A stretch of 58,317 bases of DNA from the IMG/VR virus record IMGVR_UViG_3300045051_000401, positions 1 to 58,317 of that record, one strand, 5' to 3'. The DNA comes from a virus. The number at the start of each line of letters is the position of its first letter. The stretch's first letter is position 1. Below are positions 8,258 to 26,356 of the stretch, piece after piece. Position numbers and translations under genes: made by a program. A model generated the notes under the pieces. It made no database searches. It was not told the origin of the DNA and saw nothing but the letters and a program-made list of their open reading frames with translations.

Positions 8258-11200
8258 ATGATGCCGTTACCTGAAGGCTTCCAACTGGAAAATACACAAG
8301 ACGCGCAGCGTCTCACCGTACCCGAGGGGTTTGTGCTGGAGTCCGCAGCCCCTGCCCCGTCAGGCATGGCACCGGAATCGTCTGACGGCTGGCTGACCCG
8401 TGCCGTTAAGCAGATCCCGGCCGTGGTAGCAGGGATTGCGCGCTCCGGTTACGATATGGGCAAGGAGATCGTAACTCATCCGATCGATACGGCCGTGGAC
8501 GTTGGCCATGGTATGCAGAGCGTTGCCAGGCGAGCCCCGGACACGTTCAAACAGATCGGCGCCGGCGTCTGGCAGGCAATGAATGAGGCGCCAGAGTATG
8601 ATCCGAGTGCTACGGATGCCGAAGGGTATAACCCAACCGCCGGTTTCTTCAACCGTGACGGGGTGACGCTGGCAGAGAGTAACCGGGAGGCGGCACAAAA
8701 GGCGGCTGCGTTTGGCCGGGAAGTTACGGAAAACATCCAAATCGACAAGACGGCTCATCCACGTACCACCAAAACCGGGACCATGCTGGAGAATACCGCC
8801 GAGAGTCTGCTGCAGCAGGCGCCGGGCGTGGCGTTATCCATTGCCGGTTTCCCTGGTGTCGGTTTGCCAATGATGGGTATTCAGACGTTCGGCCAGAAGT
8901 ATGCGGAGAACCGGGCCGCCGGCATGAGTATCGCGGATGCTACCCATAACTCCGCTTTCCAGGGAGGCGTTGAGATCGGTACGGAGCTGATGCCGTTCGT
9001 GGCCATGGCCAAGTTTATGAAACCGGGCAAGTTCAGTACAAAAGTGGTTGATTACATGCTTTCCGAAATTCCGGGTGAGCATATCGCTACGGCGCTGCAG
9101 AATTCTTCTGATGCGTATTTTGACGAGAAGGATCCGGCCAAGCGTATGGCCCAGGTCAAGGAGTACCTGGGGAGTCACAAGTTTACCGAGGATCAGGTTG
9201 ACACGTTCTGGACGACTATTCTGCAGGGGGGGATTATATCCGCTGCGGGGCGGAGTGCGAAAGGGGTTGCTGACCATATCGGCGGCATGGCTCCGGAGGC
9301 TGGTGTCCAGCCGGCTGCAGCTGCAGCTCCGGCGCCGGTGGTCGCACAGAATGAATCCTATGAAGATATCACCGATATGCCGGCACCGAAGGGACCGCTG
9401 GAAAGTGCGGCCGCTCAGGCTCCGGTGGTGGCGCCGGTCGTTGAACCGGCTGCTGCTGTTCCGGAGCGTCAGATTACGGAAGCTGACCAGGTTGATTTTG
9501 AGAACGCGGTGGCGTGGGAGAATAACCTGCGCACGCAGGGGCGGAGCGCTGTCACGGAAATGGAAGGTGAGACGGATCGTGATTATGCGTGGCGGCTGCT
9601 GGATGCGTACCGCGCGGCGATTACTCCGACTGTTGCCGCGTATGACGGCCCGGCTGTTCAACCTGATAGTGAACAAGTAAAGGGAGGGATGGAAAGTGGC
9701 GCTACAGATACAGTGCCCGTTCTGCAAGGCCCGGCCAAAGTGGACGGGATGGAAATGGAAGTGTCCGGGATGCAAAGCGGAGTTCCCGGACGAACAGGTA
9801 ATATATCTGAACCCGGAGGAAAAGTAGATGATTTGTCCCGAGTGCGGCAAGAAACAAGCCCCGAGGCGGAAGTGTCACAACTGCGGGGAAAAACTATAAG
9901 CCAGGCGGAAATGGATGCTGCGGTGCAGCATCTGATCGCTGAAACCAAGACTCGCCCCAAAATGGCGCTTCATGCCGTGAAGTGGTTTCTGGAAAAGGGC
10001 AACAGCGGTATGCCTGAATCATTCGCTACCGTGCTGACTGATTATTTCAAGGCAAACCCGGTCAAAGGGGAAGAGGCGGCGCCGGCCACGGCAGCGGCTG
10101 CCGCTCCGGATTACAGTGATGTATCGTATCTGGTAGATGGTAAGACCCCGGCCGAGATCCAGAAAGCGGCGGATATTGCGCGGGGCGTGGGCAATGATGA
10201 ACGGGCGGACCGGATCCTTGCCTATGCCAAGAGCAAGAGCGATCTTGACGCGGCCGCGCATGAGGCTGCGACCTCGCCTCATAATGATATCCCGGAACCG
10301 TCACAGGCGCAGATCGAGGCGGGCAATTACAAGAAGGGGCATATCAACCTGCAGGGGCTCGATATCTCCATCGAGAACCCGGCAGGATCCCTGCGTAAAG
10401 GTGTCGATGACAGCGGCAAGGCGTGGGAGACCAAGCTGGCCCATCATTACGGCTATATCAAGGGAACCGTGGGAAAGGACAAGGATCATGTCGATGTGTT
10501 CATCGGACCGAATCCTGAAAGCGATCGTGTATTTGTTGTTGATCAGATCGACCCGAAAACCGGCAAGCTCGATGAGCATAAGGTCATGCTCGGCTTTACT
10601 TCCGAGGAAGAGGCGCGCTCCGGGTACCTGGCCAACTATGACCAGAGCGGACCGGGCCGGATCGGCGCACTGGCGGCAACGTCAATCGGTCAGTTCCATC
10701 GATGGCTGAAACATGGCGATACCAAAAAAGCCTTTGCCGGCAGTAATTGGGCCGAAGATGCCCCCTCCCCTACCCCTGCGGCTGCTGACGAAAGCCAGGC
10801 AGAAACGAAATCTGAAAGCCGGCCGGAAGTGGCAGCGTATGAAAAACGGCTGAAAGCGGCCTTTAACACGCTGGAGCTGGGAAAGGTCACTGATGAATTC
10901 CATAACGATGATTCCCTGACGGATGACGAGTGGCGTTATCTGGAAGGTGTCTCGCTGGATCTGGAGCAGCAGCTGGGGAAAAAGCCGCACGTAAAAGACG
11001 GCGAGATCGATCTGGATGAGCTGGAGCATGTGGTTGATTTTGATGATCTGCCCCGCAAGCTGGATGCGTTCCCGGAGGTGGCCAAGACTCAGCAGGCCAG
11101 CAAGCTGCCCGGTGCTGACGTGGTGTTGTCACAGGCTGATGCTGACAAGATCGTGGCCGGCTGGAAACAGGAAGCGCTCCGGATCGGCGCGGAAGAGGAT

Positions 11201-14200
11201 AATAGCAAGAAGGTGGTCCTCAGTTTCTTCGACCGTACCGGCCATTGGTCAAAGCCATGGAAAGACGCCGGTTATCAGGTGTTGTCGTATGATATCCAGA
11301 CCGGTGATGATCTGATGGAGTTTTTCCCGCTCAATGACATTATGCAGGTCCGGGAGGCTGGGCTGGATATCGTCGGTGTCCTGGCGGCGCCGCCCTGTAC
11401 CTCTTTTGCCGTGTCCGGTGCCCGCTGGTGGCAGGATCAGCACGACAAGGCCGATAATGACATGGTGGAAAAGAAATACGGCTGGCAGGCGGCCCGCTAT
11501 TTCGATACGCCGCTGGAATATGCCAAGACGCTGGTGAAGCTCTCTGAATTGGCGATCGAGATGGCTGATCCGGCATGGTATGCCATGGAGAACCCGGTTG
11601 GTCGTTTTGCCGAGCAGAATGATCTGCCAAAGGCGGCCCTGTCTTTTGATCCGGCCAATTTTGGCAATCCATACACCAAGAAAACGATGATCTGGGGGGA
11701 GTTTAACACCGTTCTGCCTACCGCAAATGTGGCGCCTACCCAGGGGAGTCTGATCCATACGCTCCGGGGTGATGTTCCTGAACAGAAGCAGCTCCGTTCG
11801 GAAACGCCGGATGGTTTTGCCTATGCGTTTTTTATGGCCAATCACAAAACTGCAGCGGCAAGTGCGACCGCAAATGCTGACGCAAATGCTGACGCTGTTG
11901 CCGCAGCTCCGCGCGCTGACGGGAGTAAATCAAAGCATCGGCAGAACCTTGAAAAGCTGCTGCGTAATGCAAAGACTGAGGCGGGCCGGGCAAAGTTTTT
12001 GAAGAAGCTGGAGGCGTTGAAGCAGAAGGAATCTGCCGCAAGTGATGCCGCAACTGCGAGCGCAAACGATGCCGCAACTGCGACCGCAGATGCCCCGGCG
12101 CAAAAGCCGGCGGAGCGGCTGCCGCTGCCGGCAAAAAGGGATGATCGTGGGCCGGAAGGGCAAAAGGCGTACCTTGCCATGCTTGACCGTTACGACCTTT
12201 ATCAAGATTCTCCATCGGACCGTCGGGACTTTGATAACTTCTTTTACAGCCATTACTATGCCGGGTGGAAAGATTACGGCCAGCCGGTTATTGAACTTGA
12301 GATGCACCGGGAAACCGGCAATGAGGCGTATGCTGCCGGGTTGGCTGATGGCGTCAAGGTCGAAGCAAAACCGGACAAAGCGAAACCGGACAAAGCAAAG
12401 CCGGCCAAGAAGGTTGTCTTTGCCACGGAAGAGCAGGAAATGCAGCGCTTCCGGCTCTATCAGCAGCTGAACGCACTCAAGGACGCCCCTAAGTCGAAAT
12501 ATAAGACGATGAACGACAAGCGGTTTGCGGAAAAGCAGATCAAGGAACTGGAAAAGCAGCTGAAAAAACTGCCGATCGGTATGCTGACCGCGTTCGGTGT
12601 CAAAGAGTTGAGTTATGGCCGGCCGCAATCGCTGGCTGATCTGGGGGTACTGGTTCACTGGAAAACCGGTATGGACTTCAATATCCTGCATAACGATACG
12701 CTGGAAGAAGCCTATGCCGACTTTTCCGAAGGACGGGGCAAGGTCTTTACCAAGGAGTATTTTGATGCCCGCTGGCATGAACTGTGGCCGGCCAAGGCGC
12801 CAAAGGATGCTGATCTGGAAACGCGGACCCGGATCGAGGCCCGTGCGGCCGGATTCAGGTATTATTCCACGAATTTTGCTCCGGATCATCCTGGCGCGGT
12901 AACGTGGCGCCGGCCTGATGGGAAGGGCGAGGTTGTGCTGCGGGATGGTGAGTTTTCAGTGGTACCGGGATATAGGGAACCGGCGGTACCGTTCAAGACG
13001 TTCAAAGAGGCGGCGGAGTTTCTGGATAACCCGGCAGTGCCGCCGGCCGTTTCCGCTCCAATGAAAAACCGTCTCAAGCTGGCGCATGAGAATTTCAAGG
13101 CGCGTAAAGCTGCTGAACGGCAAGGGGCTTTCTCTGCCAAGCGGTTCGGTAATGCACTGGCCCTGCTGAAAGCCAAGAACGAGGCACGCAAAACCAAGGT
13201 GGCCGAGCACCAGGCCCGGAAACGGGTGGCAGAGGCCGCCGTGTTTTCGGCAATGGTCAACCATGATGTGATCGGCAACCTCTCCCTGCAGGCGAAGAGC
13301 ACGGCCGAAATCGCTACGTTCAACAAAGAGGCGGCCGAGATCGTGGCCGAACATATCCAGGCGCTGATCGACAAGGCCGAGACGCCGCAGGAAATGCTGG
13401 TGTATTCGGAAATGCTGGTTGATGGTAAACCGGTCCTGCCTGAGTCCTTCTTTACCGCGCTCCGGAAGGATGCGGCCAAGGCGTTCCAGCAGAACGAAAA
13501 AGAGAAGAACCGGGATCCGGAAGTGTACCGCTCCGCGCTGGCGTCAAATCTGGTGGCCCGGAGTATTGCCGAGGGTACCGAAGAGGCCCGGCGCTACAAG
13601 GAAGGGTTTGATCATGCCTTGAAGGGCAAGACGAAATCGACGCTGCCGAGTGATGACAGTCGTTATTTCGATGGCTACAAGGATGCCCAGGCGTGGATCG
13701 ATACCGCCGAGGGGAAAGCGTGGTACGAGGGGAAACGGACCGCCAAGGAGAAATCTACCGGGGATGCGTTAAAGCGGGCATGGGATCGCCAGAAAAAGGA
13801 TCTGGCCAGTATCGACAGCGAGGATATGAAAAAAGCCTGGACCCGGCTGTTAAAGGCCACGGCCCGCGCGGATCATTTCCCGATCATGCTGGCCGAGGAT
13901 GCCACGCCGGGCGCTCGGGAGTGGCTGGAAAAGTTCCGCAGCAAGGTCGCTACCTTCTCGGATTTCTATATGTGGGAGGCGGTAAACTCTGCGACCGGGA
14001 AATACACCCGGCCGGAAACGGCTTTTGAGGGGCGCTATAACAGCGACAAGGGGCGGATCCGTGATGCCCGCAACAAGAAGATCGAGAAGAATGTTACCCC
14101 GGAGTATTACGATGTGCTCCGGCGTGATGGCTACCTGGTCGGCAAGCGCTTTGAAACCGAGGCGGAGGCACAGGCGCTGATCGATAGCGGTGAGGATCTC

Positions 14201-17200
14201 TTTAAGGGTGGCACGGTCTGGCCCGGCCGGGTGCAGCATACCGGTGTGAATGATCAGCATTTCTCTCTGACCAAAGCGGAATTGCTGGAGGTTAGCAAGG
14301 AGATCGCGGCTGATTACCAGACGCGCGTTCATGGCTTGGCGGAGCGGTTCAAGGGGGTGAAGGATCTCACCGGCATTAAAGAGGTTGTCGAGGGGATGTT
14401 TAATGCCCATCCGATCGAAAAGACTGACGAGTACGAAGCAAACAAATCCCTGTATCGTGACGAGCGGATGGATATCGTTCGGATGCTGCCGGATGATGAC
14501 AAATACAGTTACTGGACCCGGTTGGCCCGGATCGAGACGGTTGAGAATACCAAAACCAAACGGGATTCACTGGTGCGGCCACGCCTGGACAAGATTATCC
14601 GCAAGGGGGTGGTCAATGCGCGCAATGGTAGGGATATCTCTGCTGATCAGCTGAAAAAAACCTTTGGCTTTGCCGATATCACCATCGGCCAGTATGTGAC
14701 CGCGCAGCAGGCGCAGGATCATATCAACTACACCTATGATGCCCTGATGACGCTGGTGGATCTGCTCAAGAATAAGCCAAAGGATCTCTCTTTTGGCGGC
14801 AAGTTGCACTATGCGATCGGCGCGCTGGGCTCCGGGAAGTACGCGGCCCACTTCCAGCCGAAACAGGCCCATCCGTCAGGCGGTACCGTACCGGTTATCA
14901 ATGTCACCAATACCAAGGGTGACGGTGCGTTTCTTCGCGAGTTCTTTCATGCGATCGATTTCCTGACCACGGATCCCCGCTTGAAGCAGGTGATCAGCAG
15001 CGTCAAGTCGTTGCTGGTTGATGTGCCGTACAGTGCCGAGGAAGTGCTGAAGGATGTGGAAGGATTCCTTGACGGCCGGCGGAGTTTTACCCGGATGCCG
15101 CGCAATTCGACGCCAAAGGATCATGCACTCTATCTGCTGAATCACTATTACAGCCGGGCCGGCAAGTCGGGCCGCCAGACTGATTTTTACCGGGAAGCGC
15201 AGAAACTTGACGCCGGCCGGGGTAATGATCCGTACTGGTCAAACCAGTATGAACCGTTTGCCCGGATGGCTGAGGCGTGGGGATATGATGCGCTGCGGGA
15301 TCAGTCGGCGCAGGATGATTACCTGGTGGCGAATTGGGCCGAGGACGGCAAGGTAACGAGTCCTCAGTACAAGGGTACGCCGTACCCTCGTGGTGAAGAG
15401 CGCGGCCGTCTGGTCAAGGTGTTTGGTGAGCTGATCGATGCAATGGCGTGGGGTGATGACGGCCCGGTGCTGAAAGAGGGGCACAAGTGGCATGACACGC
15501 TTCCGTATGAAGATGCGGCAGCACCATTCAGAAAGGCGCGGCAGGATGCGCTCGATAACCTTGACAAGATCGCGGCCAATCTGAAAGCGCGCAAGGCCGA
15601 AGAGGCGGCCGAGCGGGAGCGGAAGAGACAAGAGGCGATCTGGGGAACCGTGCCGGTGGAAGAGCCGGCGCCGGCGCCGGTACCACCGGCTGAAACGGTT
15701 GCGTCCGAGGATCCCGCTGTCGGTACCTCCATCGATGAACTGTCGGCGCTGTTTGATGAAGTGGCTGATAGCATGGCGGCCGAGGCCCAGGAAGAGCCCA
15801 AGGCCGAGGCACCGGGTACGGCTGTTGAGCGGCAGGGGTGGACGGTCGAGGATGTGAAGTTTCTGCGGGATCTGGTTGAAGAGGGTACGATGGTGCTGCT
15901 GGCCAGTGATGAATTTGCGACCGCACACCAGATCCCCACGATCCACTCTTTTTCGGGTAAGGCTACCGTGGCGCACATGGGGTACGGTGTCTTTAAGGCC
16001 AAGAATGACACGTATGAGGTTACCTGGACCGGTGGCGGCGCTATGTCGAGCACTCCGGGCGGGCACCCGTACACGACCGTTTCTGTTGTGGATGGCCTGT
16101 TTGTCTATCCGAAAAACGAAATAATGGCCACGTTGACGGGCGTGCTGGAAGAGTCCCGCAAGGCCAACACCAAGAGCCTGTTGCAGAACGGCAGAAGCGG
16201 CAAGCTGCAGACGGCGGCCGAGCAGACGGTTGCGCCGGTCGCACCGAAAAGCAACGATGTGGCGCCTCCCCTCCCCTCCCTCTCTGTGGAACAGGATAAG
16301 ACCGCTGCAGCACTGGCCAAGGAATTCGCCAAGCATGGCGTCGAAGGGATAGACGAAGCACTCAAGGGGCTCGTCGGGATCTTTGGCGGTGGCCCCAACA
16401 AGCTGTTGTCGTTCCCGGCCGGGTTTGACGAGGAAGCCTACAAGCTGGCCAAGCCTCATTTTGAGGCGTCGGCCAAGGCGTTCCATAAGGCGGGCATGAC
16501 CTTCAAGGAGTTTGTGGCCACGTTCTTCCGCTCGATCATCCAGAGTTTCGGTGTCGGGGTCAAGCCGTATGCGGTGCAGTTTGCCAAGGATTACGAGGCT
16601 ACCTATAACGAGCTGCAGAAAGAGCAGGCGGCGCCGGCCACGCAAGAGGCTGTTGTAGCTGACAATTCACCGGCTGCAGGGCTGGCCGATTGGGTCCACT
16701 TCAATCTGAACAAGAATAAGGCGATTAGCTGGCAAGAGCTGTTCAGCAAAGCCGATCAGTTCTACGGCGGCACTCAGGCCGATGGTACCTACTCGGTGAA
16801 GGATGCCTATGATGCTGTGGAGCTGGGGATCAATCAGGCACTGCTTGAAAAAGAGCGGCTCGGTAGTTTCCCGTCAAGCGCGGCCATAGCTGCGGATGTA
16901 ATGAAGTCCCTGGAATCGCTGCTTGATCTTGTGCCGACTCAAACCAAGCGGACCGCTGAAATGGACGAATTCCAGCAGTTCAGCACGCCGCCTCATTTTG
17001 CGTGGCTGGCCAACTGGACGGCGAACCTCCGCCCGGAAGATACCTATCTGGAGCCGTCCGCCGGTGTCGGTGGCCTGGCTACCTTTGGCAAGCTGGCCGG
17101 CGTGAAACAGGTTGTCGTCAACGAGCTGTCAGCGCGGCGCCTGGCACTGCTGCGGTTGCTACCCTTCGACCGTTTCTTTTCGGAGAACGCGGAGCAGCTG

Positions 17201-20200
17201 GACAACATCCTGCCGGATGACGTTAAGCCAACCGTGATCGTGATGAACCCGCCATTTTCGAGCACGGCCGGCCGGGTGGAGGGGCAGCGCAAAACCATCA
17301 ACGGTGCCAAGCATATCGAGCAGGCGCTGGCGCGTCTCGCTCCGGGTGGCCGTCTGGTTGCGATCGTCGGTGAGGGGATGGCTCACAACAAGCCGAATTT
17401 CCGCGATTGGTGGAAAAATATCGAGAAAAAATACGCAGTTCGTGCTAATATTGGTATAGATGGAACCAGTTATTCCAAGTACGGCACTACCTTTGACAAC
17501 CAGATCCTCGTGATCGATAAAGTGGCACCAACCGGGGCGGAGATCCTGACCGGGAAGGTGGCACATCCGAATGAGGCGTTTGCCCTCCTGGAAGGAATCA
17601 GAAATGACAGACCAACTACAGAGACAGCTGGATCAGGTAGCAGCGTGGCCAGCCAGCAAGGAAGCGGAACGGCTGTGCAAAGTGGCACAGGCAACCAGAT
17701 TGCCGTGGATGCAGCCGGCGATTCTGGATCTCCTGTCGTGGGCAGTGGAAGACGCGGCGCCGAAGTACAAGCTGGAAACCGGCCGGGCACTGCAGATGCT
17801 GGAAGAGCTGCAGGGGATGGCAAACCCGGTAGCAGCAGCACGGATTCTGTTCGATCTGGACGGACAGGAGCAGACGGACATACCGGCGGAACTGACCAGA
17901 GCGGTAACGCGACCGGAAATAGCTCAAACAGTGATAACCTTGGCGATAAACTCGGCAGCGAAGTAGAACTAAAAGCCGATGCTGCCAGTGAGCTAGGCGA
18001 AATCAATAACTCCGTATTTGAGCAGTACGTCCCCAAGAAGGTCCGGATCGAGGGAAGTGTCCCGCACAATACTCCCCTCGTTGAATCGGCGGCACTCGCT
18101 GCCGTAAGCGGTCCGGATCCAACCTATACGCCCAATCTCCCCAAAGAAGTCATTACAAAAGGGTTGCTCTCCGATGCGCAGCTTGAATCGGTTGTGTATG
18201 CCGGCCAGGCACACCAGCAATGGCTGGTTAATGGCCAGCGCCGTGGTTTCTTCCTCGGTGATGGTACCGGTGTCGGCAAGGGGCGCCAGATCTCCGGCAT
18301 TATCCTGGACAACATGCGCCAGGGGCAGAAAAAAGCCGTCTGGATCTCCAAGAAAACACCGCTGATCGAAGATGCCAAGCGGGACTTTGCCGATATCGGT
18401 GGCGATCCCAAGCTGATTTTTGCGCAGGACAAGACTAAGGCGGCGGAGGATATCAAGGCGGAACAGGGGATCATGTTCGCCGGATATGCGCTGTTGCGTG
18501 GCCAGACGAGCGCGGCCCGTGATGCAATCAAGGCAAACGGCAGGGTTAAGATCTCTGATAAGCGCGGCCTGTCATACGTCCGGACTCAGCAGATCGCTAA
18601 CTGGCTCGGGGCGGATTTCGACGGCGTAATCGTTTTTGACGAGGCGCACGAGATGGGTAATGCGGTACCGGTGAAGGGTACGCGCGGCACCAAAAAACCG
18701 TCTGATCAGGCGTTGGCTGCGCTGGAGCTGCAGCGGGCACTGCCACGGGCCAAGGTTGTCTATGTTTCCGCGACCGGCGCCACGGAAGTTGCCAACCTCG
18801 CCTATGCTGATCGGCTCGGCTTGTGGGGTGAGGGTACGCCCTTTACCGATGTTCATGCGTTTGTTGGCAGCTTGAGCCAGAGCGTCTCAGCCATGGAGCT
18901 GGTGGCGCAGAACCTGAAACAGATGGGGCTCTATCTGGCCCGCTCCCTCTCCTTTGACGGGATCGTCTACAACAAGATCGAGCATGACCTGACCGATTAC
19001 CAGCGGGAAACCTACGATCTGCTGGCAACGGCCTGGCAGGGCGTGCTGCAGAATATCAATGAAGCACTCCAGGACACCGGCGTTATGGATCCGCATACCG
19101 GGAAGTCTACCGGCAAGGAATCCGGCAAGATAAAATCAGCGATCATGTCCGCGTTCTGGGGCTCTCACCAGCGCTTTTTCAACCAGATCATTACGGCGGG
19201 CGCCATGCCCTCCGTGTTGGAGCAGATTGAGAAAGATCTGAGCGAGAATAAGAGTGTCGTGCTGCAGCTGGTTAATACCAACGAGGCGGATCAGGAGCGG
19301 GCACTGGCCAAGATGGCCGGCCAGACCATCAAGGAGGGGGAAGAGGACAGCGTTGAAGAGCTGGATCTTACCCCGCGTGAGCAGCTGATCAACTTCATCG
19401 AGCGCGCTTTCCCGGTACGCCAGATGGAGCAGTACACCGATGGCATTGACGAGAAGGGTAATCCGATCATCCGCCTCCGGCCCGTACTGGATTCGGCCGG
19501 CAAGCCGGTCCTGAACCGTGACGCGGTGGCCAAGCGTGACCAGCTGATTGAACGGATCCGGGGGATCCGGATCCCGGACTCGGCCATGCAGATGCTGATC
19601 AATCACTTTGGCCCCGAGAAGGTTGCGGAAATAACCGGCCGTACCCAGCGCGTTATCTATGACGAGAAGGGGAAGATGAAGATCGAGAAGCGCGGCCCGT
19701 CTGCCGTGGCTGCTGACTCCAATAACTTCAAGGACGGCAAGAAGAAGATCCTGATCTTCTCTCAGGCCGGCGGTACCGGTTTCTCGTTTCACGCGGACAA
19801 GCGTTACAAGAATCAGGATCAGCGCAGCCATTACATCCTGCAACCGGGGTGGAGTGCTGACCGGGCCATACAGGGACTTGGCCGTTCTCACCGTACCAAT
19901 CAGAGCAGCACGCCGATCTATCGGCTGGTGACCACCGATATCCCGGCGCAAAAGCGCTTTATCTCTTCGATTGCCCGGCGCCTGGAGCAGCTCGGGGCAC
20001 TCACGTCCGGGCAGCGTGACACGGCCGGGGGATCCCTCTTTTCCGCGACGGATAACCTGGAGTCGATCTATTCGACCCGCGCGGTCAAGCAGTTCTTTAC
20101 AAACGCCTTTGGTACCGGACAGACGCGGACCGGTTACGACCAGCTGCCGGATGATCTGTTGGAGCAGATGGGGCTGCAGGGAATCATCGACCCGGACACC

Positions 20201-23200
20201 GGCCAGATTTCCGAGGATAAGATCCCGGCGGTAACGCAGTTCCTGAACCGTTTGCTGTCGCTGCGGCTCGATACTCAGAGCACGGTCTTTGATCTGTTCC
20301 TTGCGGAGCTGGAGCAGCAGATTGAAGCTGCCAAGCAGATGGGGACTTTTGATGACGGGATGCAGACGGTTCGCCACGTAGGCGCCACGATCAACCAGGA
20401 GGAAGAGGTTTATCGTGATGAACTGACCAATGCCTCAACCAAGTATCTGGCGATCGAGTACAAAACACCGCTGCCGATCTACGATTTTGATGAAACAAAC
20501 ACGTTCATTCAGGGGCGGCGGAGAGCCGGCGGCAATGCCGGCTGGTTCAAGAACAAGCACTCCGGGAAAATTGCCGGGATCTATCTGACCACCGGTACCC
20601 GTACCGAAACTGACGGCCGTATTGTCTCGGTGTATGGCGTGTGGCGGACCAGCGGCAATTCCTTTGAGACAGCAACCAAGATCGGAGATCTCAATAGCAA
20701 GTGGGAGCGGATCGATGACGTGGAAGCTGCCCGTGGTTTATGGGAAGGGGAGAACAAGGCCCGGCCCAAGACTGCCACGCACAAGCTGAATATGGTTGTC
20801 GGGGGGATCCTGCCGATCTGGAACCGCTTTAACAACGACAGTATAAGGGTGGTCCGGATCGGGACCGATGACGGCCGGCGTTTCCTGGGGCGCCAGATTG
20901 CTCCGGTGGATCTGGCTGAAACCATGAGGAAGCTGAACGTCACGAGCCCAACCGCCAAAATGACCGGCGCCGATCTGGCCAAGGAGATCATGAACGGTCA
21001 GCGGGTGGAAATGTCGAACGGCTGGAAGTTCAAGCGCGTCAAGGTGTCGAATGATACCAGGATCGAGATCGCACCGAAGGGGTACCTGACCCGCATGGCC
21101 GAGGATTACATGCGGCGGGCCGGCGTGCTCTTTGAAACGATCCAGTATCAGCCGCGCTATTTTGTGCCAACCGGGGAAAAGGCCGGGGGTACGATCGATG
21201 CCCTGATGCGCTCGCTCGGGATGAACGCTACCGATATCGGTGATGCGAACAGCGGAAGTGACGCCAATTTTGCACTGTCGGAGGATCTGCTTGACCCGGC
21301 AATTCCCGGTAACCTCTCCGGCACTTCTAAAACCACGCGGGCACTGGCCAATTCGTACATAGGGTATCTGGGTGCCCGTCTCAAGGCGGCGGGCTTTGAT
21401 GTTACCTTTGTGGCGCATGGCCGGGTGGATCATCCGAAAGAGGTGATGATCAAGATATCGGCCAAGAAGGATGGCGTCCCGGATGTTATTATTAACCGTT
21501 TCATCGGTGGTACCCATCTCCACCTTGATGAAGTGCGCTCGTTGGATGAAAAAGTACATACCGGTATACTGCGGCCACTGTATAAAGCTGAAAGCGATAT
21601 TGCCAAGCGTTATGGCTTGACTGTTTCCAGCGATTTGATAAACTCAAATAAGGGGAATACTCTTGAGAAGTACCGGGAGTTCTACCCGCAATACCAGAAC
21701 AAAGAAGGGGAATACTATCATGTTGCCACGCACGAGAAGCCCGCAACGTACAGTTTCTACCCCGGAGACGTCCTCTCTGCAGCCTTCGACAACCGGGGGC
21801 TCTCGCTCTCCGGTGAAAGACTCCTCTACCAGTACGCTACCGATGCGGCTCGCGGGCTTGAGGAAATTCAGCGAAGCGGTAGAAAAGGATCCTCTGGCGT
21901 AAATCTTAAACTGACTGACCGAACCTCCACCGGAATTCAGGCGGCCGAAGCACGCGCCTGGGTGTCCACCCTCCCCTTCGCGCAGCACGTCAATGTTGTT
22001 CAGGCTGTTGACGATCTGCCGACAAACGCCCGTAACGAAATAACCATCTCAAAGGTCAACCCTTCGCGCGTGCAAGCCATGGAGCTACACGGCACGATCC
22101 ATGTCATTGCCGATAATGTCACGGACATGCAGCGCGTCCGTGCGCTCGTTATCGGGCACGAGCTGGCACACGCCGGCCAGACAGACAAGATCGTGGATCT
22201 GGCGGTGGATTGGTTCAAGCGGACCGCTGACAAGGACTCGGAGCAGGCCCGCAACGCACATGCCACGCTGGAGCAGATTGCCGGCCGGTACGGGTATGAT
22301 CTGAAAAACGCCAAGCAGTACCGCCGGGCAGTACAGGAAGCAACGGCAGCCATTGCCGAGCAGGCCGCTACCGAGGGGTGGAAGCCGGCCGGGGTGCTGC
22401 AGCGGATCTTTATGTATGTCAAACACTGGCTCCGGCAGCAGGGGTTGATCAAGCATGTGTCTGACAGTGAGTTGTCGCTGGCCGTGGCGGAAATGCTCCG
22501 GATTGGTGAAAAGCGCTTATCGGTTGGCCAGGGTGGCAGTGAGGCGCAGCTGGCAGCGGCGTGGCATGGTAGCCCGTATGATCATGATGGTTTTAGCTCG
22601 GAGTATATTGGCGAGGGTGAAGGCCACCAATCATACGGGTACGGACTCTATTTTGCTGAATCAAAAGAAATCGCGGACTATTACCGCGAAGTGCTTTCCA
22701 AGGGTAATGCCCTTAGTATGGAAGAGCTGGAAAACTATTTCCAGCCCGGCCGGATCGTGCCGTCATACGCTGGCCAGGACCGGGTTGTTTCTTTTAATCG
22801 TGGTGATGATAACCATGGCTGGAGTGTGACGGTTCATCATGTTGACAGGAATGGCGAGAAGGTGTCAGGCCCGGAGGGGCGCAACCGTACCCATTTCACC
22901 ATGCCGAGCGCGAAAGACTACGAAAAGGTGACCGGGGAAAAGCCGAAGTTGGGTACGTTGTACCAGGTGGAGCTGGTGCCGAAAGAAGATGAATACCTGT
23001 TGTGGGATAAGCCGCTGAGTGAGCAGAGCGAGAAGGTGCAGGCGGCGCTTGCAAACATTCCTACTGAAGTCAACATGAAGCAAACGGGGGAGCAGTTTTA
23101 TACTGGTGATGAAATGTCCTGGGCTACTCTAAAGGCGAGACATTTGGATGATACCTCGACCGATAAGGCTGCCTCCGACTATCTTCACTCCCTCGGGATC

Positions 23201-26200
23201 CGGGGAATCAAATACCTCAATGGTAGTAGCCGCAACAATATGGAGCAGATGCAGAGTGTGCTCCAGAATTCGCTGAATTTTTACCGGAGTGCCAGAAAGG
23301 GCGGCAATACGGAGCAGGCGGAACGCTGGAAGGAGCGGTATAAAGAGGCCCGGAAAAAGCTGAATGATGCGTATAACTATGTCATTTTCAACGATGCCGA
23401 TGTGGAAATCAAAGCCAAGTTTGCCCTCTCCGAAGAAGAGCAGCAGCAGGCGATCCACAAGATATCCGAAGCAGCCACGCTGGAGAACCTGAAAGAGATC
23501 CTGAACCCGCTCGATTACTCCCGCTTCCGGGACTTTGCCGGCGATCGGCTCTCGCATAACGCGAATACCTGGCTGGCTGACAACCTCGGCAATCCGTTCT
23601 GGGTGAAAGAGAATAACCCGGCGGCCCGGCCGTTTTATGATGAGGCCAAGGATCGGGAAGTTACCCGGATGGATAATAACATCCGGATGTTTGGCGGCCT
23701 GCTGGACCGGGACGGCAAGCGGATCGGCTGGGACAAGGTAAAGGGACTGTTTAACTGGTCTGATAAGATTACGGCCTGGGGCAAGATCCGGCAGGAGCAG
23801 TACAACAACCTCACCGACAAGCAGAAAGCGGCCTATGACGTGATCCGCTTTGAAGGTGATGCCTATAACAAGGTGTATGCGACACTGGACAATGCGCTCC
23901 ATAACCACCGGATCCGCGCGGCCGGTCTGGATGCCCAGACTTTTGCGTTCTACCAGGCAGCCATGGCCGAAGAGGCTAAGGCGTTTGAGGTAAAGCTGGC
24001 GATCGCGCAGGAAAATATGGCGGAAGCCGGCATGACTCCGGAGGATATCGAGGGGCACATTGCCGAATACCGGGCCAAGTACAAGGATATCGAGGGGTGG
24101 GTCCACCGGGACCATGGCGAAGGTGAATATCAGGTGCGGGTCTATCAGGATATTACCGAGCTGGATCTGGAGACTGATGTTGTGCAGCACCGGGACGAGA
24201 CAACGGACCGGATCCGTCTCGCCACGTTCCCCGGTGTGGAAGTGTCCCGCAAGATCGAGGCGATCGTGGACCGTCTCGGGGGGAGTTTCAAGCAGCTGCG
24301 GAATGGTGCGATCGTGGTGCTGATGCCGGAGGGACGTGGCCAGCAGGCACTGAAAGAGTTTCAGGAGATCGAGCTGCTGGACAAGGAAGGAAAGCCGAAA
24401 TACAAGGTGCTGGTGTATTCCCGCTTTGTTGCCTCCAAGGCCCGCGCCAGAAGTCTGGCCCGTGAAGTAAGGGGGAATTACAAGGCGGCCATGCCCCGGA
24501 ATTATCGCCCTGGTGGCAGCTATGAAACCTCGTGGAGTTTTTCGGCCAAGCTGAATGAAGAGGATTACCAGGTACTGAAAACCTCTGATATGAAGCTGGA
24601 GCTGATCCTGCGCAATGCGATCGACAAGGCAAAGGCCCGCAGCGAGATCAGTGCGGCGGATGCGACCGGAGTACAGGAGGCGTTGGTGCAGAGTGTGGCA
24701 GAGATCCTGCTGGGACGTGGCGCCGGCCTCTACCAGATCCGCCGGGCTCAGTATCTGATCGAGGGGTACGATACCAGTAACGCCGTCAAGAAGTACGAGG
24801 ATTACATCAACGGTACCGCCGGCCTCTTCTCCAAGGCCCGGTATGCCCTGCGCCAGTTCAAGAACATGAAGAGCGCGCCGCCAACGATCCGGGCGTGGGC
24901 TACCAAGTATGTCAGCGATTCCCTGCGCAATATGGGGCGGGCTGATATGGTCTCGGGCAATGCCCGCGCGCTGGTGTCGCTCTGGTACCTTGGTTTCAAT
25001 GCGTCGTGGATGCTGGTAAACTCCACGCAGCCGTATGTGCTGGGGCAGGCGGAATTGTCACGGTATACCAAAGGAGCGACCGGGAAGATTGCCCGCGCGG
25101 AAAAGGATGTTATCACCGGGAAACTGACTGATGAAGAGAAGTCGCTGTTTGAGGAAATGGCGGTACGGAGTCAGGACCATGATTCGATGATGGCGGAAAT
25201 GACCGGGATGAATGAGGGGGTCGGCGGCGCCGCGTCCAAGGCGTTGCATGGTGCTACTCAGGTTGCCATGGCACTCGGGCAGCGGGTGGAAGTAATGAAC
25301 CGCCATACCATGATCGTGGCGGCGTACCGGGTATTCCGGAAAGAGCAGCGGCTGGATCATGCCACCGCTCTTGATAAAGCGCTCCAGGTCAACAGCATGG
25401 TCAATATCGATATGGGCCGCTACAACCTGCCGGGGTGGGCTCGTGGCCCGGTCGGCCGTACCTTCTATGCGCTGCAGTCGTATATTCAGCACATGCTCAA
25501 CTATCTGTATAACCGGAGCAGCAGCGGCGATCGTGCTGATCAGAAAGCGGTATTGCGGTTGCTGTTCGCCATGTTCCTGATCGGTGGACTCCCTGCAGGA
25601 GCACCGGGAAGTGACGAGCTGGACAAACTGATTCAGCAGCTGTTTGGCTATTCGCCAAAACTGGCCCTGAAATCATGGGCACGGAAGCAGGCCAAGGAGT
25701 ACGGTACTCTGGGGGAAATGCTGGAGGGGTTTGTCTGGCATGGTGTGCCGGGTGCGTTCAAGCCGTTCGGGGTTGGCGTCTCGCTGACCGGCGCCACGCA
25801 GATCCGGCTGCCGGTGATCTCCAGTGTGATCGGCGGGGATGATATGTTTAAGGCGGTCGGCGGCCCGGTGGCTGGTCTGGGGGTCAAGGGGATCATGTCC
25901 TTTAAGGCTGCGGTCCGGGGCGATTGGGGGCGTGCGGTTGAGTACATGCTGCCCACGGCGGCCTCAAACATTGCCAGCGGGATCCGGCAGGCTACTGACG
26001 GCGTAAAAACCGCCGGCGGCAAGCGGGTTGATTACAAGGGCAAGCAGCTGAAAATGGAACCGCACGAGGCGGTTATCCGGGCGGTTGGTCTGCAGCCGGT
26101 CCGTACCGCTGATATTTCAGAGACGCGCGGGTATGAAAAGAGCCTGGTAACCGAGTGGAATGATCGCCGCAAGGATGCCCTGGACAGCTACCGCATGAGC

Positions 26201-26356
26201 CGTAAGCTGAAATATATTCAGCAGTTTAACCGGAGCCTGCGCGATAGTCAGGCGCAGGGTTTGGTCCCGGCGATCTCTGCTGAATCGTTGTCAAACGTCT
26301 GGGGCCGCCAGAATAAAAAGAAAGGGAGCTGGGAGCGGGAGCATGGTGCAGATTAG
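8258..26356 (+). CDS. Giant polyvalent (DarB-like) virion protein, 6,032 residues
   Basis: One uninterrupted frame of 18.1 kb; ATG 8258 or 8261 both follow AAAGGGG. Domains, with rough residues: PEGF-x-LE N-terminus; inorganic pyrophosphatase-like domain 690-835; C5-cytosine methyltransferase-like domain 985-1150 with Pro-Cys at 1046-1047 and a later MENP; LPD1-type domain 2130-2400, whose expected HExxH is REFFH at 2227; N6-adenine methyltransferase 2810-3100 with EPSAG at 2932 and NPPF at 2997; Strawberry-notch-type helicase 3285-4150 with GDGTGVGKG at 3334, DEAH at 3461 and QGLGRSHRTNQ at 3872; zincin with HELAH at 4634; ADP-ribosyltransferase-like 4767-5055; and a long PLxRFG/LPD38-type C-terminus. 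Methylase plus this helicase is the layout of phage P1 DarB, which enters with the DNA and blocks restriction. A similar entry role is inferred. Confidence 0.88.
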   Translation: MMPLPEGFQLENTQDAQRLTVPEGFVLESAAPAPSGMAPESSDGWLTRAVKQIPAVVAGIARSGYDMGKEIVTHPIDTAVDVGHGMQSVARRAPDTFKQIGAGVWQAMNEAPEYDPSATDAEGYNPTAGFFNRDGVTLAESNREAAQKAAAFGREVTENIQIDKTAHPRTTKTGTMLENTAESLLQQAPGVALSIAGFPGVGLPMMGIQTFGQKYAENRAAGMSIADATHNSAFQGGVEIGTELMPFVAMAKFMKPGKFSTKVVDYMLSEIPGEHIATALQNSSDAYFDEKDPAKRMAQVKEYLGSHKFTEDQVDTFWTTILQGGIISAAGRSAKGVADHIGGMAPEAGVQPAAAAAPAPVVAQNESYEDITDMPAPKGPLESAAAQAPVVAPVVEPAAAVPERQITEADQVDFENAVAWENNLRTQGRSAVTEMEGETDRDYAWRLLDAYRAAITPTVAAYDGPAVQPDSEQVKGGMESGATDTVPVLQGPAKVDGMEMEVSGMQSGVPGRTGNISEPGGKVDDLSRVRQETSPEAEVSQLRGKTISQAEMDAAVQHLIAETKTRPKMALHAVKWFLEKGNSGMPESFATVLTDYFKANPVKGEEAAPATAAAAAPDYSDVSYLVDGKTPAEIQKAADIARGVGNDERADRILAYAKSKSDLDAAAHEAATSPHNDIPEPSQAQIEAGNYKKGHINLQGLDISIENPAGSLRKGVDDSGKAWETKLAHHYGYIKGTVGKDKDHVDVFIGPNPESDRVFVVDQIDPKTGKLDEHKVMLGFTSEEEARSGYLANYDQSGPGRIGALAATSIGQFHRWLKHGDTKKAFAGSNWAEDAPSPTPAAADESQAETKSESRPEVAAYEKRLKAAFNTLELGKVTDEFHNDDSLTDDEWRYLEGVSLDLEQQLGKKPHVKDGEIDLDELEHVVDFDDLPRKLDAFPEVAKTQQASKLPGADVVLSQADADKIVAGWKQEALRIGAEEDNSKKVVLSFFDRTGHWSKPWKDAGYQVLSYDIQTGDDLMEFFPLNDIMQVREAGLDIVGVLAAPPCTSFAVSGARWWQDQHDKADNDMVEKKYGWQAARYFDTPLEYAKTLVKLSELAIEMADPAWYAMENPVGRFAEQNDLPKAALSFDPANFGNPYTKKTMIWGEFNTVLPTANVAPTQGSLIHTLRGDVPEQKQLRSETPDGFAYAFFMANHKTAAASATANADANADAVAAAPRADGSKSKHRQNLEKLLRNAKTEAGRAKFLKKLEALKQKESAASDAATASANDAATATADAPAQKPAERLPLPAKRDDRGPEGQKAYLAMLDRYDLYQDSPSDRRDFDNFFYSHYYAGWKDYGQPVIELEMHRETGNEAYAAGLADGVKVEAKPDKAKPDKAKPAKKVVFATEEQEMQRFRLYQQLNALKDAPKSKYKTMNDKRFAEKQIKELEKQLKKLPIGMLTAFGVKELSYGRPQSLADLGVLVHWKTGMDFNILHNDTLEEAYADFSEGRGKVFTKEYFDARWHELWPAKAPKDADLETRTRIEARAAGFRYYSTNFAPDHPGAVTWRRPDGKGEVVLRDGEFSVVPGYREPAVPFKTFKEAAEFLDNPAVPPAVSAPMKNRLKLAHENFKARKAAERQGAFSAKRFGNALALLKAKNEARKTKVAEHQARKRVAEAAVFSAMVNHDVIGNLSLQAKSTAEIATFNKEAAEIVAEHIQALIDKAETPQEMLVYSEMLVDGKPVLPESFFTALRKDAAKAFQQNEKEKNRDPEVYRSALASNLVARSIAEGTEEARRYKEGFDHALKGKTKSTLPSDDSRYFDGYKDAQAWIDTAEGKAWYEGKRTAKEKSTGDALKRAWDRQKKDLASIDSEDMKKAWTRLLKATARADHFPIMLAEDATPGAREWLEKFRSKVATFSDFYMWEAVNSATGKYTRPETAFEGRYNSDKGRIRDARNKKIEKNVTPEYYDVLRRDGYLVGKRFETEAEAQALIDSGEDLFKGGTVWPGRVQHTGVNDQHFSLTKAELLEVSKEIAADYQTRVHGLAERFKGVKDLTGIKEVVEGMFNAHPIEKTDEYEANKSLYRDERMDIVRMLPDDDKYSYWTRLARIETVENTKTKRDSLVRPRLDKIIRKGVVNARNGRDISADQLKKTFGFADITIGQYVTAQQAQDHINYTYDALMTLVDLLKNKPKDLSFGGKLHYAIGALGSGKYAAHFQPKQAHPSGGTVPVINVTNTKGDGAFLREFFHAIDFLTTDPRLKQVISSVKSLLVDVPYSAEEVLKDVEGFLDGRRSFTRMPRNSTPKDHALYLLNHYYSRAGKSGRQTDFYREAQKLDAGRGNDPYWSNQYEPFARMAEAWGYDALRDQSAQDDYLVANWAEDGKVTSPQYKGTPYPRGEERGRLVKVFGELIDAMAWGDDGPVLKEGHKWHDTLPYEDAAAPFRKARQDALDNLDKIAANLKARKAEEAAERERKRQEAIWGTVPVEEPAPAPVPPAETVASEDPAVGTSIDELSALFDEVADSMAAEAQEEPKAEAPGTAVERQGWTVEDVKFLRDLVEEGTMVLLASDEFATAHQIPTIHSFSGKATVAHMGYGVFKAKNDTYEVTWTGGGAMSSTPGGHPYTTVSVVDGLFVYPKNEIMATLTGVLEESRKANTKSLLQNGRSGKLQTAAEQTVAPVAPKSNDVAPPLPSLSVEQDKTAAALAKEFAKHGVEGIDEALKGLVGIFGGGPNKLLSFPAGFDEEAYKLAKPHFEASAKAFHKAGMTFKEFVATFFRSIIQSFGVGVKPYAVQFAKDYEATYNELQKEQAAPATQEAVVADNSPAAGLADWVHFNLNKNKAISWQELFSKADQFYGGTQADGTYSVKDAYDAVELGINQALLEKERLGSFPSSAAIAADVMKSLESLLDLVPTQTKRTAEMDEFQQFSTPPHFAWLANWTANLRPEDTYLEPSAGVGGLATFGKLAGVKQVVVNELSARRLALLRLLPFDRFFSENAEQLDNILPDDVKPTVIVMNPPFSSTAGRVEGQRKTINGAKHIEQALARLAPGGRLVAIVGEGMAHNKPNFRDWWKNIEKKYAVRANIGIDGTSYSKYGTTFDNQILVIDKVAPTGAEILTGKVAHPNEAFALLEGIRNDRPTTETAGSGSSVASQQGSGTAVQSGTGNQIAVDAAGDSGSPVVGSGRRGAEVQAGNRPGTADAGRAAGDGKPGSSSTDSVRSGRTGADGHTGGTDQSGNATGNSSNSDNLGDKLGSEVELKADAASELGEINNSVFEQYVPKKVRIEGSVPHNTPLVESAALAAVSGPDPTYTPNLPKEVITKGLLSDAQLESVVYAGQAHQQWLVNGQRRGFFLGDGTGVGKGRQISGIILDNMRQGQKKAVWISKKTPLIEDAKRDFADIGGDPKLIFAQDKTKAAEDIKAEQGIMFAGYALLRGQTSAARDAIKANGRVKISDKRGLSYVRTQQIANWLGADFDGVIVFDEAHEMGNAVPVKGTRGTKKPSDQALAALELQRALPRAKVVYVSATGATEVANLAYADRLGLWGEGTPFTDVHAFVGSLSQSVSAMELVAQNLKQMGLYLARSLSFDGIVYNKIEHDLTDYQRETYDLLATAWQGVLQNINEALQDTGVMDPHTGKSTGKESGKIKSAIMSAFWGSHQRFFNQIITAGAMPSVLEQIEKDLSENKSVVLQLVNTNEADQERALAKMAGQTIKEGEEDSVEELDLTPREQLINFIERAFPVRQMEQYTDGIDEKGNPIIRLRPVLDSAGKPVLNRDAVAKRDQLIERIRGIRIPDSAMQMLINHFGPEKVAEITGRTQRVIYDEKGKMKIEKRGPSAVAADSNNFKDGKKKILIFSQAGGTGFSFHADKRYKNQDQRSHYILQPGWSADRAIQGLGRSHRTNQSSTPIYRLVTTDIPAQKRFISSIARRLEQLGALTSGQRDTAGGSLFSATDNLESIYSTRAVKQFFTNAFGTGQTRTGYDQLPDDLLEQMGLQGIIDPDTGQISEDKIPAVTQFLNRLLSLRLDTQSTVFDLFLAELEQQIEAAKQMGTFDDGMQTVRHVGATINQEEEVYRDELTNASTKYLAIEYKTPLPIYDFDETNTFIQGRRRAGGNAGWFKNKHSGKIAGIYLTTGTRTETDGRIVSVYGVWRTSGNSFETATKIGDLNSKWERIDDVEAARGLWEGENKARPKTATHKLNMVVGGILPIWNRFNNDSIRVVRIGTDDGRRFLGRQIAPVDLAETMRKLNVTSPTAKMTGADLAKEIMNGQRVEMSNGWKFKRVKVSNDTRIEIAPKGYLTRMAEDYMRRAGVLFETIQYQPRYFVPTGEKAGGTIDALMRSLGMNATDIGDANSGSDANFALSEDLLDPAIPGNLSGTSKTTRALANSYIGYLGARLKAAGFDVTFVAHGRVDHPKEVMIKISAKKDGVPDVIINRFIGGTHLHLDEVRSLDEKVHTGILRPLYKAESDIAKRYGLTVSSDLINSNKGNTLEKYREFYPQYQNKEGEYYHVATHEKPATYSFYPGDVLSAAFDNRGLSLSGERLLYQYATDAARGLEEIQRSGRKGSSGVNLKLTDRTSTGIQAAEARAWVSTLPFAQHVNVVQAVDDLPTNARNEITISKVNPSRVQAMELHGTIHVIADNVTDMQRVRALVIGHELAHAGQTDKIVDLAVDWFKRTADKDSEQARNAHATLEQIAGRYGYDLKNAKQYRRAVQEATAAIAEQAATEGWKPAGVLQRIFMYVKHWLRQQGLIKHVSDSELSLAVAEMLRIGEKRLSVGQGGSEAQLAAAWHGSPYDHDGFSSEYIGEGEGHQSYGYGLYFAESKEIADYYREVLSKGNALSMEELENYFQPGRIVPSYAGQDRVVSFNRGDDNHGWSVTVHHVDRNGEKVSGPEGRNRTHFTMPSAKDYEKVTGEKPKLGTLYQVELVPKEDEYLLWDKPLSEQSEKVQAALANIPTEVNMKQTGEQFYTGDEMSWATLKARHLDDTSTDKAASDYLHSLGIRGIKYLNGSSRNNMEQMQSVLQNSLNFYRSARKGGNTEQAERWKERYKEARKKLNDAYNYVIFNDADVEIKAKFALSEEEQQQAIHKISEAATLENLKEILNPLDYSRFRDFAGDRLSHNANTWLADNLGNPFWVKENNPAARPFYDEAKDREVTRMDNNIRMFGGLLDRDGKRIGWDKVKGLFNWSDKITAWGKIRQEQYNNLTDKQKAAYDVIRFEGDAYNKVYATLDNALHNHRIRAAGLDAQTFAFYQAAMAEEAKAFEVKLAIAQENMAEAGMTPEDIEGHIAEYRAKYKDIEGWVHRDHGEGEYQVRVYQDITELDLETDVVQHRDETTDRIRLATFPGVEVSRKIEAIVDRLGGSFKQLRNGAIVVLMPEGRGQQALKEFQEIELLDKEGKPKYKVLVYSRFVASKARARSLAREVRGNYKAAMPRNYRPGGSYETSWSFSAKLNEEDYQVLKTSDMKLELILRNAIDKAKARSEISAADATGVQEALVQSVAEILLGRGAGLYQIRRAQYLIEGYDTSNAVKKYEDYINGTAGLFSKARYALRQFKNMKSAPPTIRAWATKYVSDSLRNMGRADMVSGNARALVSLWYLGFNASWMLVNSTQPYVLGQAELSRYTKGATGKIARAEKDVITGKLTDEEKSLFEEMAVRSQDHDSMMAEMTGMNEGVGGAASKALHGATQVAMALGQRVEVMNRHTMIVAAYRVFRKEQRLDHATALDKALQVNSMVNIDMGRYNLPGWARGPVGRTFYALQSYIQHMLNYLYNRSSSGDRADQKAVLRLLFAMFLIGGLPAGAPGSDELDKLIQQLFGYSPKLALKSWARKQAKEYGTLGEMLEGFVWHGVPGAFKPFGVGVSLTGATQIRLPVISSVIGGDDMFKAVGGPVAGLGVKGIMSFKAAVRGDWGRAVEYMLPTAASNIASGIRQATDGVKTAGGKRVDYKGKQLKMEPHEAVIRAVGLQPVRTADISETRGYEKSLVTEWNDRRKDALDSYRMSRKLKYIQQFNRSLRDSQAQGLVPAISAESLSNVWGRQNKKKGSWEREHGAD
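9696..9827 (+). CDS. Overprinted zinc-ribbon microprotein A
   Basis: A 43-codon frame in the +1 register of the giant gene, starting GTG at 9696 after an AGGGAGG ribosome-binding site (9681-9687) and ending TAG 9825-9827. It encodes CPFC, twelve residues, then CPGC, a textbook Zn-ribbon, with four Trp and Lys residues between the Cys pairs. The frame is closed by a stop at 9678-9680, so this is not a long shadow frame. In the main frame the same bases encode low-complexity Gly/Ser/Glu-rich linker (residues 480-523). Two CxxC pairs, an SD and coupling to the next microgene make chance unlikely. Confidence 0.7.
   Translation: MALQIQCPFCKARPKWTGWKWKCPGCKAEFPDEQVIYLNPEEK
9828..9899 (+). CDS. Overprinted zinc-ribbon microprotein B
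   Basis: A 23-codon frame whose ATG directly abuts the stop of microprotein A, with GGAGG at 9816-9820. It encodes MICPECGKKQ then a basic turn and CHNCGEKL: a complete minimal CxxC...CxxC zinc ribbon. It uses the same +1 register within the giant gene's linker (residues 524-547). Similar short Zn ribbons occur as free-standing genes elsewhere in this phage, for example the start of the gene at 37577 (MICPKCK). Confidence 0.68.
   Translation: MICPECGKKQAPRRKCHNCGEKL
17604..17966 (+). CDS. Overprinted 120-residue helical protein
   Basis: In the +1 register of the giant gene, ATG 17604 follows GGAAGGA (17590-17596) by seven bases, and the frame runs 120 codons to TAG. The protein (MTDQLQRQLDQVAAWPASKE and on) has ordinary globular composition, with amphipathic helices and regularly spaced Leu and Trp. 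The main frame over the same bases (residues 3116-3237, between methylase and helicase) is almost entirely Gly, Ser, Thr, Asp and Asn, as expected when a disordered linker is constrained by another frame. I do not recognise the family. Confidence 0.7.
   Translation: MTDQLQRQLDQVAAWPASKEAERLCKVAQATRLPWMQPAILDLLSWAVEDAAPKYKLETGRALQMLEELQGMANPVAAARILFDLDGQEQTDIPAELTRAVTRPEIAQTVITLAINSAAK

Follow-up and report, generated by a model that had tools for sequence, protein, structure and literature searches.

Evidence for an overprinted gene in the methylase-helicase linker of DarB-type polyvalent protein genes, with a possible partner role for its product

Based on the collective evidence from its homologues, a 120-codon reading frame lying out of frame within the giant polyvalent-protein gene of virus record IMGVR_UViG_3300045051_000401 (58,317 nucleotides, hereafter the window) is almost certainly a real, expressed and so far unannotated overprinted gene. 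As such, it would be a protein-coding gene lodged in another frame of the linker that joins the methylase and helicase domains of a DarB-type polyvalent gene. The overall reading that we favour, and regard as rather probable, is that of a genuine nested gene with its own internal start, in which the main frame serves as a tether and the product is a partner of the methylase-helicase made in cis.

The host gene (8258–26356, plus strand) is a single open reading frame of 6,032 codons encoding a giant large polyvalent protein with Pfam matches to LPD1, InPase, AAA_34 and Helicase_C_4. Its DNA adenine methylase region of 185 amino acids (16970–17524, plus strand), which is conserved in every relative retrieved and contains an NPPF motif, directly precedes a main-frame linker of about 167 residues rich in Gly, Ser, Thr and Asn (17525–18025, plus strand; edges approximate, from profile matches). 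Downstream follow the two halves of a strawberry-notch helicase, the P-loop half (AAA_34, PF13872, E=4e-112; 18062–19018, plus strand) and the C-terminal half (Helicase_C_4, PF13871, E=9e-84; 19583–20365, plus strand). The matches to AAA_34, Helicase_C_4 and LPD1 together with the NPPF motif fit a DarB-like methylase-helicase polyvalent protein, and by this domain content the host gene is assigned to the DarB type, with a putative anti-restriction function. The overprinted gene occupies 17604–17966 on the same plus strand, in the +1 frame relative to the giant frame, with its ATG at 17604–17606 and a TAG stop at 17964–17966. A Shine-Dalgarno-like GGAAGGA (17590–17596, plus strand) is positioned 7 nt 5' of the ATG, where it falls in the main-frame codons L-E-G of a conserved LLEGIRND motif, and homologues have GGAGG/GAGGG-type sites at the matching place. 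The preliminary description of this DNA, made from the sequence of the window, had proposed a 120-residue +1 frame with a well-placed Shine-Dalgarno site over a Gly/Ser/Thr/Asn-rich linker between methylase and helicase, and its coordinates and frame are borne out on each of these points.

Considered by itself, the window does not make the case. On shuffling of synonymous codons within the window, the +1 frame stays open in 14% of shuffles with the gene's own codons and in 62% with flanking codon usage, so that its openness is not beyond chance (P 0.14–0.62). Frame openness was consequently discarded as evidence from single sequences, and the significance of the hidden frame rests entirely on its homologues. 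Direct searches with the 120-residue product (tblastn on phages, a pattern search of viral contigs, Pfam, PHROGs) returned no relatives, and relatives were reached solely via the methylase domain: 37 viral loci in a first round, and in later rounds 65 loci in the genomes of several bacterial phyla along with 80 in viruses, plus conjugative and other plasmids. The +1 frame is open in the linker of all 35 first-round loci with a full linker, and the translations align as one family with the motifs LN..P.N..A...L and L.L..WALE.G, a near-invariant proline and a C-terminal AA..LLE.L. We built a profile from 30 viral copies and searched with it the frames that surround the methylase end in 136 loci. 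With a cut-off of E<1e-3, 114 loci have their match in the +1 frame and a single locus (L098, at a contig end) has one in another frame; genome and plasmid loci held out of the profile score down to 1e-20. After de-duplication, 107 of 143 distinct methylase-helicase loci have a +1 frame that matches the profile, held-out plasmid and chromosomal loci included, and most of the 36 unmatched ones, a mostly planctomycete group among them, keep a +1 open reading frame of divergent sequence at the equivalent place. Three of the viral loci (L153, L156 and L159) have an equivalently placed frame of unrelated-looking sequence, although on the tree they fall within normal carriers; either fast divergence or replacement would account for them. 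Synonymous shuffles over 78 representatives less than 50% identical give a combined log10 P of -98 and -69 under two codon models, each being a plain product over representatives that ignores their remaining relatedness.

The pattern of substitution identifies which of the two frames is under constraint. Across 15 disjoint, hence independent, close pairs, differences in the overlap at main-frame codon positions 1, 2 and 3 number 447, 259 and 198, in contrast to 208, 107 and 715 in the adjacent methylase, a reversal (p=5e-23) in which main-frame position 1 coincides with the hidden frame's wobble position. The preliminary description had called for dN/dS in both frames, and the Nei-Gojobori values for the overlap in the same pairs, standard single-frame estimates rather than products of a joint overlapping-gene model, are 0.33 for the hidden and 1.63 for the main frame, the flanking methylase having a pN/pS of 0.14. 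Main-frame synonymous divergence is 0.121 in the overlap compared to 0.404 in the adjacent methylase. Stops in the +1 frame and ordinary synonymous variation, which that description had named as signs against the gene, were looked for and not found in the carrying lineages. Judged from these substitutions, it is the hidden protein that is conserved, the main-frame sequence over the overlap being mostly its by-product.

Conservation extends to the signals for initiation. Among the 127 loci with the reading frame, the start is an ATG in 123, stands at the identical offset from the methylase in 84 and is preceded by a Shine-Dalgarno-like 4-mer in 115, and a stop codon is present in all. The ATG count is biased by the script, which picked the in-frame ATG closest to the common position, the counts of common offset and Shine-Dalgarno site being less dependent on that choice. 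A conserved start with its Shine-Dalgarno site fits independent internal initiation: ribosomes would start at the internal ATG on the mRNA of the giant gene, and both proteins would thus come from one transcript. A programmed frameshift that joins the hidden frame onto the methylase as an alternative C-terminus, with no separate protein made, would be in keeping with the location of the frame directly 3' of the methylase domain; we consider it highly improbable, given that 103 of the 127 loci have an in-frame stop at most 20 codons upstream of the start, that the ATG and its Shine-Dalgarno site are conserved, and that free-standing copies with their own start exist.

Linker and hidden gene vary together. 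The length of the linker tracks that of the hidden frame (rho 0.855, n=118, linkers below 210 residues), and every linker with a hidden frame has 138 residues or more, as compared to 64–126 residues in ten relatives without a recognisable hidden gene (nine of them 64–112, the tenth 126). Eight of these ten stem from plasmids of alphaproteobacteria and Nostoc, groups in which part of the plasmid relatives have the methylase-helicase but no hidden frame; the other two are an acidobacterial and a planctomycete locus. Locus L089 still contains a 144-codon open +1 stretch, which neither profile matches. The preliminary description had suggested that carrying the gene may be part of the reason for the linker, and the comparison of homologues supports this. 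Presence and absence of the hidden frame require just 3 changes on a host-domain tree with 99 rows, and distances between hidden proteins correlate with those between the methylases (Mantel r 0.38, p 0.001); together, these results indicate inheritance with the host gene, not homing. They bear directly on the idea that the linker is an inserted homing element carrying the hidden gene, to which we assign very little probability. The layout would match, since the ShiLan element (PMC11855218) likewise has an out-of-frame reading frame inside a phage methylase whose main frame is kept open as a loop. However, the distribution observed here is not patchy, the position is constant across phyla, and the hidden frame has no match to an HNH or any other nuclease family in Pfam, PHROGs or NCBIfam.

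AlphaFold predicts the 120-residue product to consist of seven helices and no other secondary structure (pLDDT 88.4, pTM 0.79), in agreement with the helical protein anticipated from the sequence. A fold search with the window's model found no neighbour in PDB or BFVD, nothing being below E 0.5, and no credible family match was found in Pfam, PHROGs, NCBIfam or PADLOC; as far as these collections reach, the hidden protein constitutes a new family. Two sets of hits were judged to be chance: sigma-70 region matches, the only ones returned by a PDB search with the 30-row profile (E 0.16), and NCBIfam matches far under the cut-off (E 0.004–0.013). The hidden proteins are mildly acidic, with a median pI of 4.8 and a median net charge of -6 (range -19 to +2); acidity this mild would not by itself mark an Ocr-like DNA mimic. 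In addition, the methylase-helicase genes of a set of mostly planctomycete loci (L075–L101; e.g., L075:5644–5982) contain a distinct nested +1 protein of 113 residues, ungapped over 13 loci, with a mean column identity of 61% and near-perfect AGGAGG sites. Its AlphaFold model is likewise helical (pLDDT 91.9), and a fold search of PDB with it gave nothing below E 0.5. Comparison with the main family by hhalign yields E 0.16, short of proof by sequence; from motif order, a common origin of the two types is likely.

Whole-genome searches covering about 1,600 genomes show nearly all copies to be nested and two to be free-standing. The free-standing homologues for which the preliminary description had suggested a search in phages do therefore exist, but none was found in the phage collection. 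The copy in Thiocystis violacea encodes 114 residues, has its own Shine-Dalgarno site and is 60% identical to a nested copy from a Thioflavicoccus plasmid (plain tblastn, E=4e-30). Stops break its former main frame, no methylase or helicase is found within the 8 kb examined around it, and it sits among conjugation and plasmid genes, adjoining a KorA/TrfB-like reading frame recognised by eye. The second copy (L230, L237) belongs to another genome, of the Sporomusa phylum, and has stops in both other frames. An independent gene with a homologous product is hard to square with a chance reading frame, and such copies show that the hidden protein need not come from the mRNA of the host gene. Two further candidates were not counted. 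One (L212) was dropped as a remnant locus that has kept the linker and lost methylase and helicase; the other (L231/L238, G1253:C6) contains TAG codons at two in-frame positions, lacks a neighbouring methylase and is either a pseudogene or a TAG-recoded element. A remnant locus (L224, G283:C2; nested frame near 9339–9675, minus strand) preserves a linker with both frames open, methylase and helicase being gone.

From the collective evidence, the possibility of a chance open frame without a product, arising from GC-rich codon bias and Gly/Ser-rich coding, retains hardly any probability. It draws on the unexceptional openness of the window and on the long +1 stretches that GC-rich plasmid copies do contain by chance (181 codons in L195, for example). 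Yet it is at odds with the conserved product, start and Shine-Dalgarno site and with the hidden-frame dN/dS, and in these comparisons the codon-position pattern and the free-standing copies refute it. The main rival accepts a real overprinted gene and has its product act alone against a host system, as an anti-restriction or establishment factor that is delivered or made early, with the linker merely affording shared expression. We consider this less probable than the partner role, though a serious contender. The host genes belong to the DarB-like class of anti-restriction proteins, which phages and conjugative plasmids encode (PMC5512222), the Thiocystis copy lies among conjugation and plasmid genes beside a KorA/TrfB-like regulator, and the products are mostly acidic. 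A putative anti-defence activity of the hidden protein, which the preliminary description had raised, is plausible. Against independent action, the product shows no similarity to known anti-defence or anti-restriction families (Pfam, PHROGs, NCBIfam, PADLOC, PDB, BFVD), nor a sequence or fold match to Ocr or ArdA (PDB), and near-exclusive residence in a single linker suggests dependence on the host protein.

That the hidden protein is instead a partner of its host protein we hold to be about evenly balanced between true and false. A partner made in cis is favoured by the confinement of nearly all copies to one linker, by the mRNA that both genes share and by the price of a methylase-helicase at work in the wrong cell, and the small number of changes on the host-gene tree lends support; absence of the frame from some plasmid relatives implies that the partner is not needed in every lineage. 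In the mechanism proposed, the main frame over the overlap would be a disordered tether, its sequence largely dictated by the hidden gene, and the small helical protein would be a dedicated, cis-made chaperone, inhibitor or accessory subunit that may handle the methylase-helicase before or after delivery with the DNA. Extending the partner reading, we tentatively suggest an ancient two-protein cassette, in which the tether of the methylase-helicase is the largely passive shadow of a second gene and the linker has grown to make room for a partner, encoded in cis, by which the enzyme is controlled or escorted; the unit would have been kept across phages, conjugative plasmids and several bacterial phyla, with the hidden gene occasionally released as a free-standing one.

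The giant gene of the window may hold a second case. Two tiny zinc-ribbon reading frames (9696–9827 and 9828–9899, plus strand) lie over another of its Gly/Ser-rich stretches, in the same +1 register, as had been noted before; the former has a GTG start with a GGGAGGGA-type Shine-Dalgarno site, the latter an ATG right after the stop. Among 80 InPase-domain loci, one (L244) shows a similar MTCPKCGKKQARRKKCHQCG some 146 nt 5' of InPase; it lies in the matching register, and the main frame stays open. More long +1 open stretches of the giant gene are located at 9021–9680, 10137–10709, 12021–12470 and 22449–22829.

Lastly, our study has importance in showing that a disordered linker in a polyvalent protein can double as coding space. 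Nested genes are skipped by annotation pipelines, and a widespread family, housed in anti-restriction genes that are well studied, seems for this reason to have escaped notice. To our knowledge, deeply conserved overprinted genes of prokaryotes are few and usually disputed. The gene described here is backed by dN/dS evidence, a confidently predicted fold and free-standing relatives, and it occurs at the equivalent spot in more than 100 phages, plasmids and bacterial genomes, with the hidden protein preserved while the visible one drifts. Cultured carriers include Methylotuvimicrobium alcaliphilum 20Z (plasmid MEALZ_p) and Sporomusa ovata DSM 2662. The gene also provides a convenient way of asking whether DarB-type enzymes depend on a partner. 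Searches of mainly open-access papers yielded no report of it.

Regarding known systems, small genes nested out of frame in larger phage genes, with functionally linked products, are familiar from the Rz/Rz1 type. The present case differs in that the host gene encodes a DarB-type anti-restriction enzyme and no spanin, the product is a soluble-looking helical protein, and the proteins are unrelated. Cas11, a small helical partner subunit produced by internal initiation within the gene of its large partner (cas8 or cas10d), is proposed as a functional analogy; it is, however, encoded in frame, hence not overprinted, and is unrelated. Phage P1 DarB was considered as a carrier and rejected, as it has no comparable long +1 frame at the matching place and is too distant for the methylase profile. 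The host gene joins an adenine methylase to a strawberry-notch SF2 helicase within one polyvalent protein and represents the DarB-like methylase-helicase dyad that Iyer et al. 2017 describe among the polyvalent proteins of phages and conjugative plasmids, with a Methylomonas strawberry-notch example named (PMC5512222); in a text search of that article, a nested gene did not turn up. The closest layout described is that of the ShiLan insertion in mycobacteriophage methylases, a patchy homing element with an out-of-frame HNH endonuclease that has a GTG start and for which leaderless initiation is proposed (PMC11855218). Both cases share a hidden frame within a phage methylase gene whose main frame is open throughout. 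Unlike ShiLan, the gene reported here would encode a non-nuclease protein from an ATG with a Shine-Dalgarno site, is inherited with its host gene, and spans phages, plasmids and the chromosomes of several bacterial phyla.
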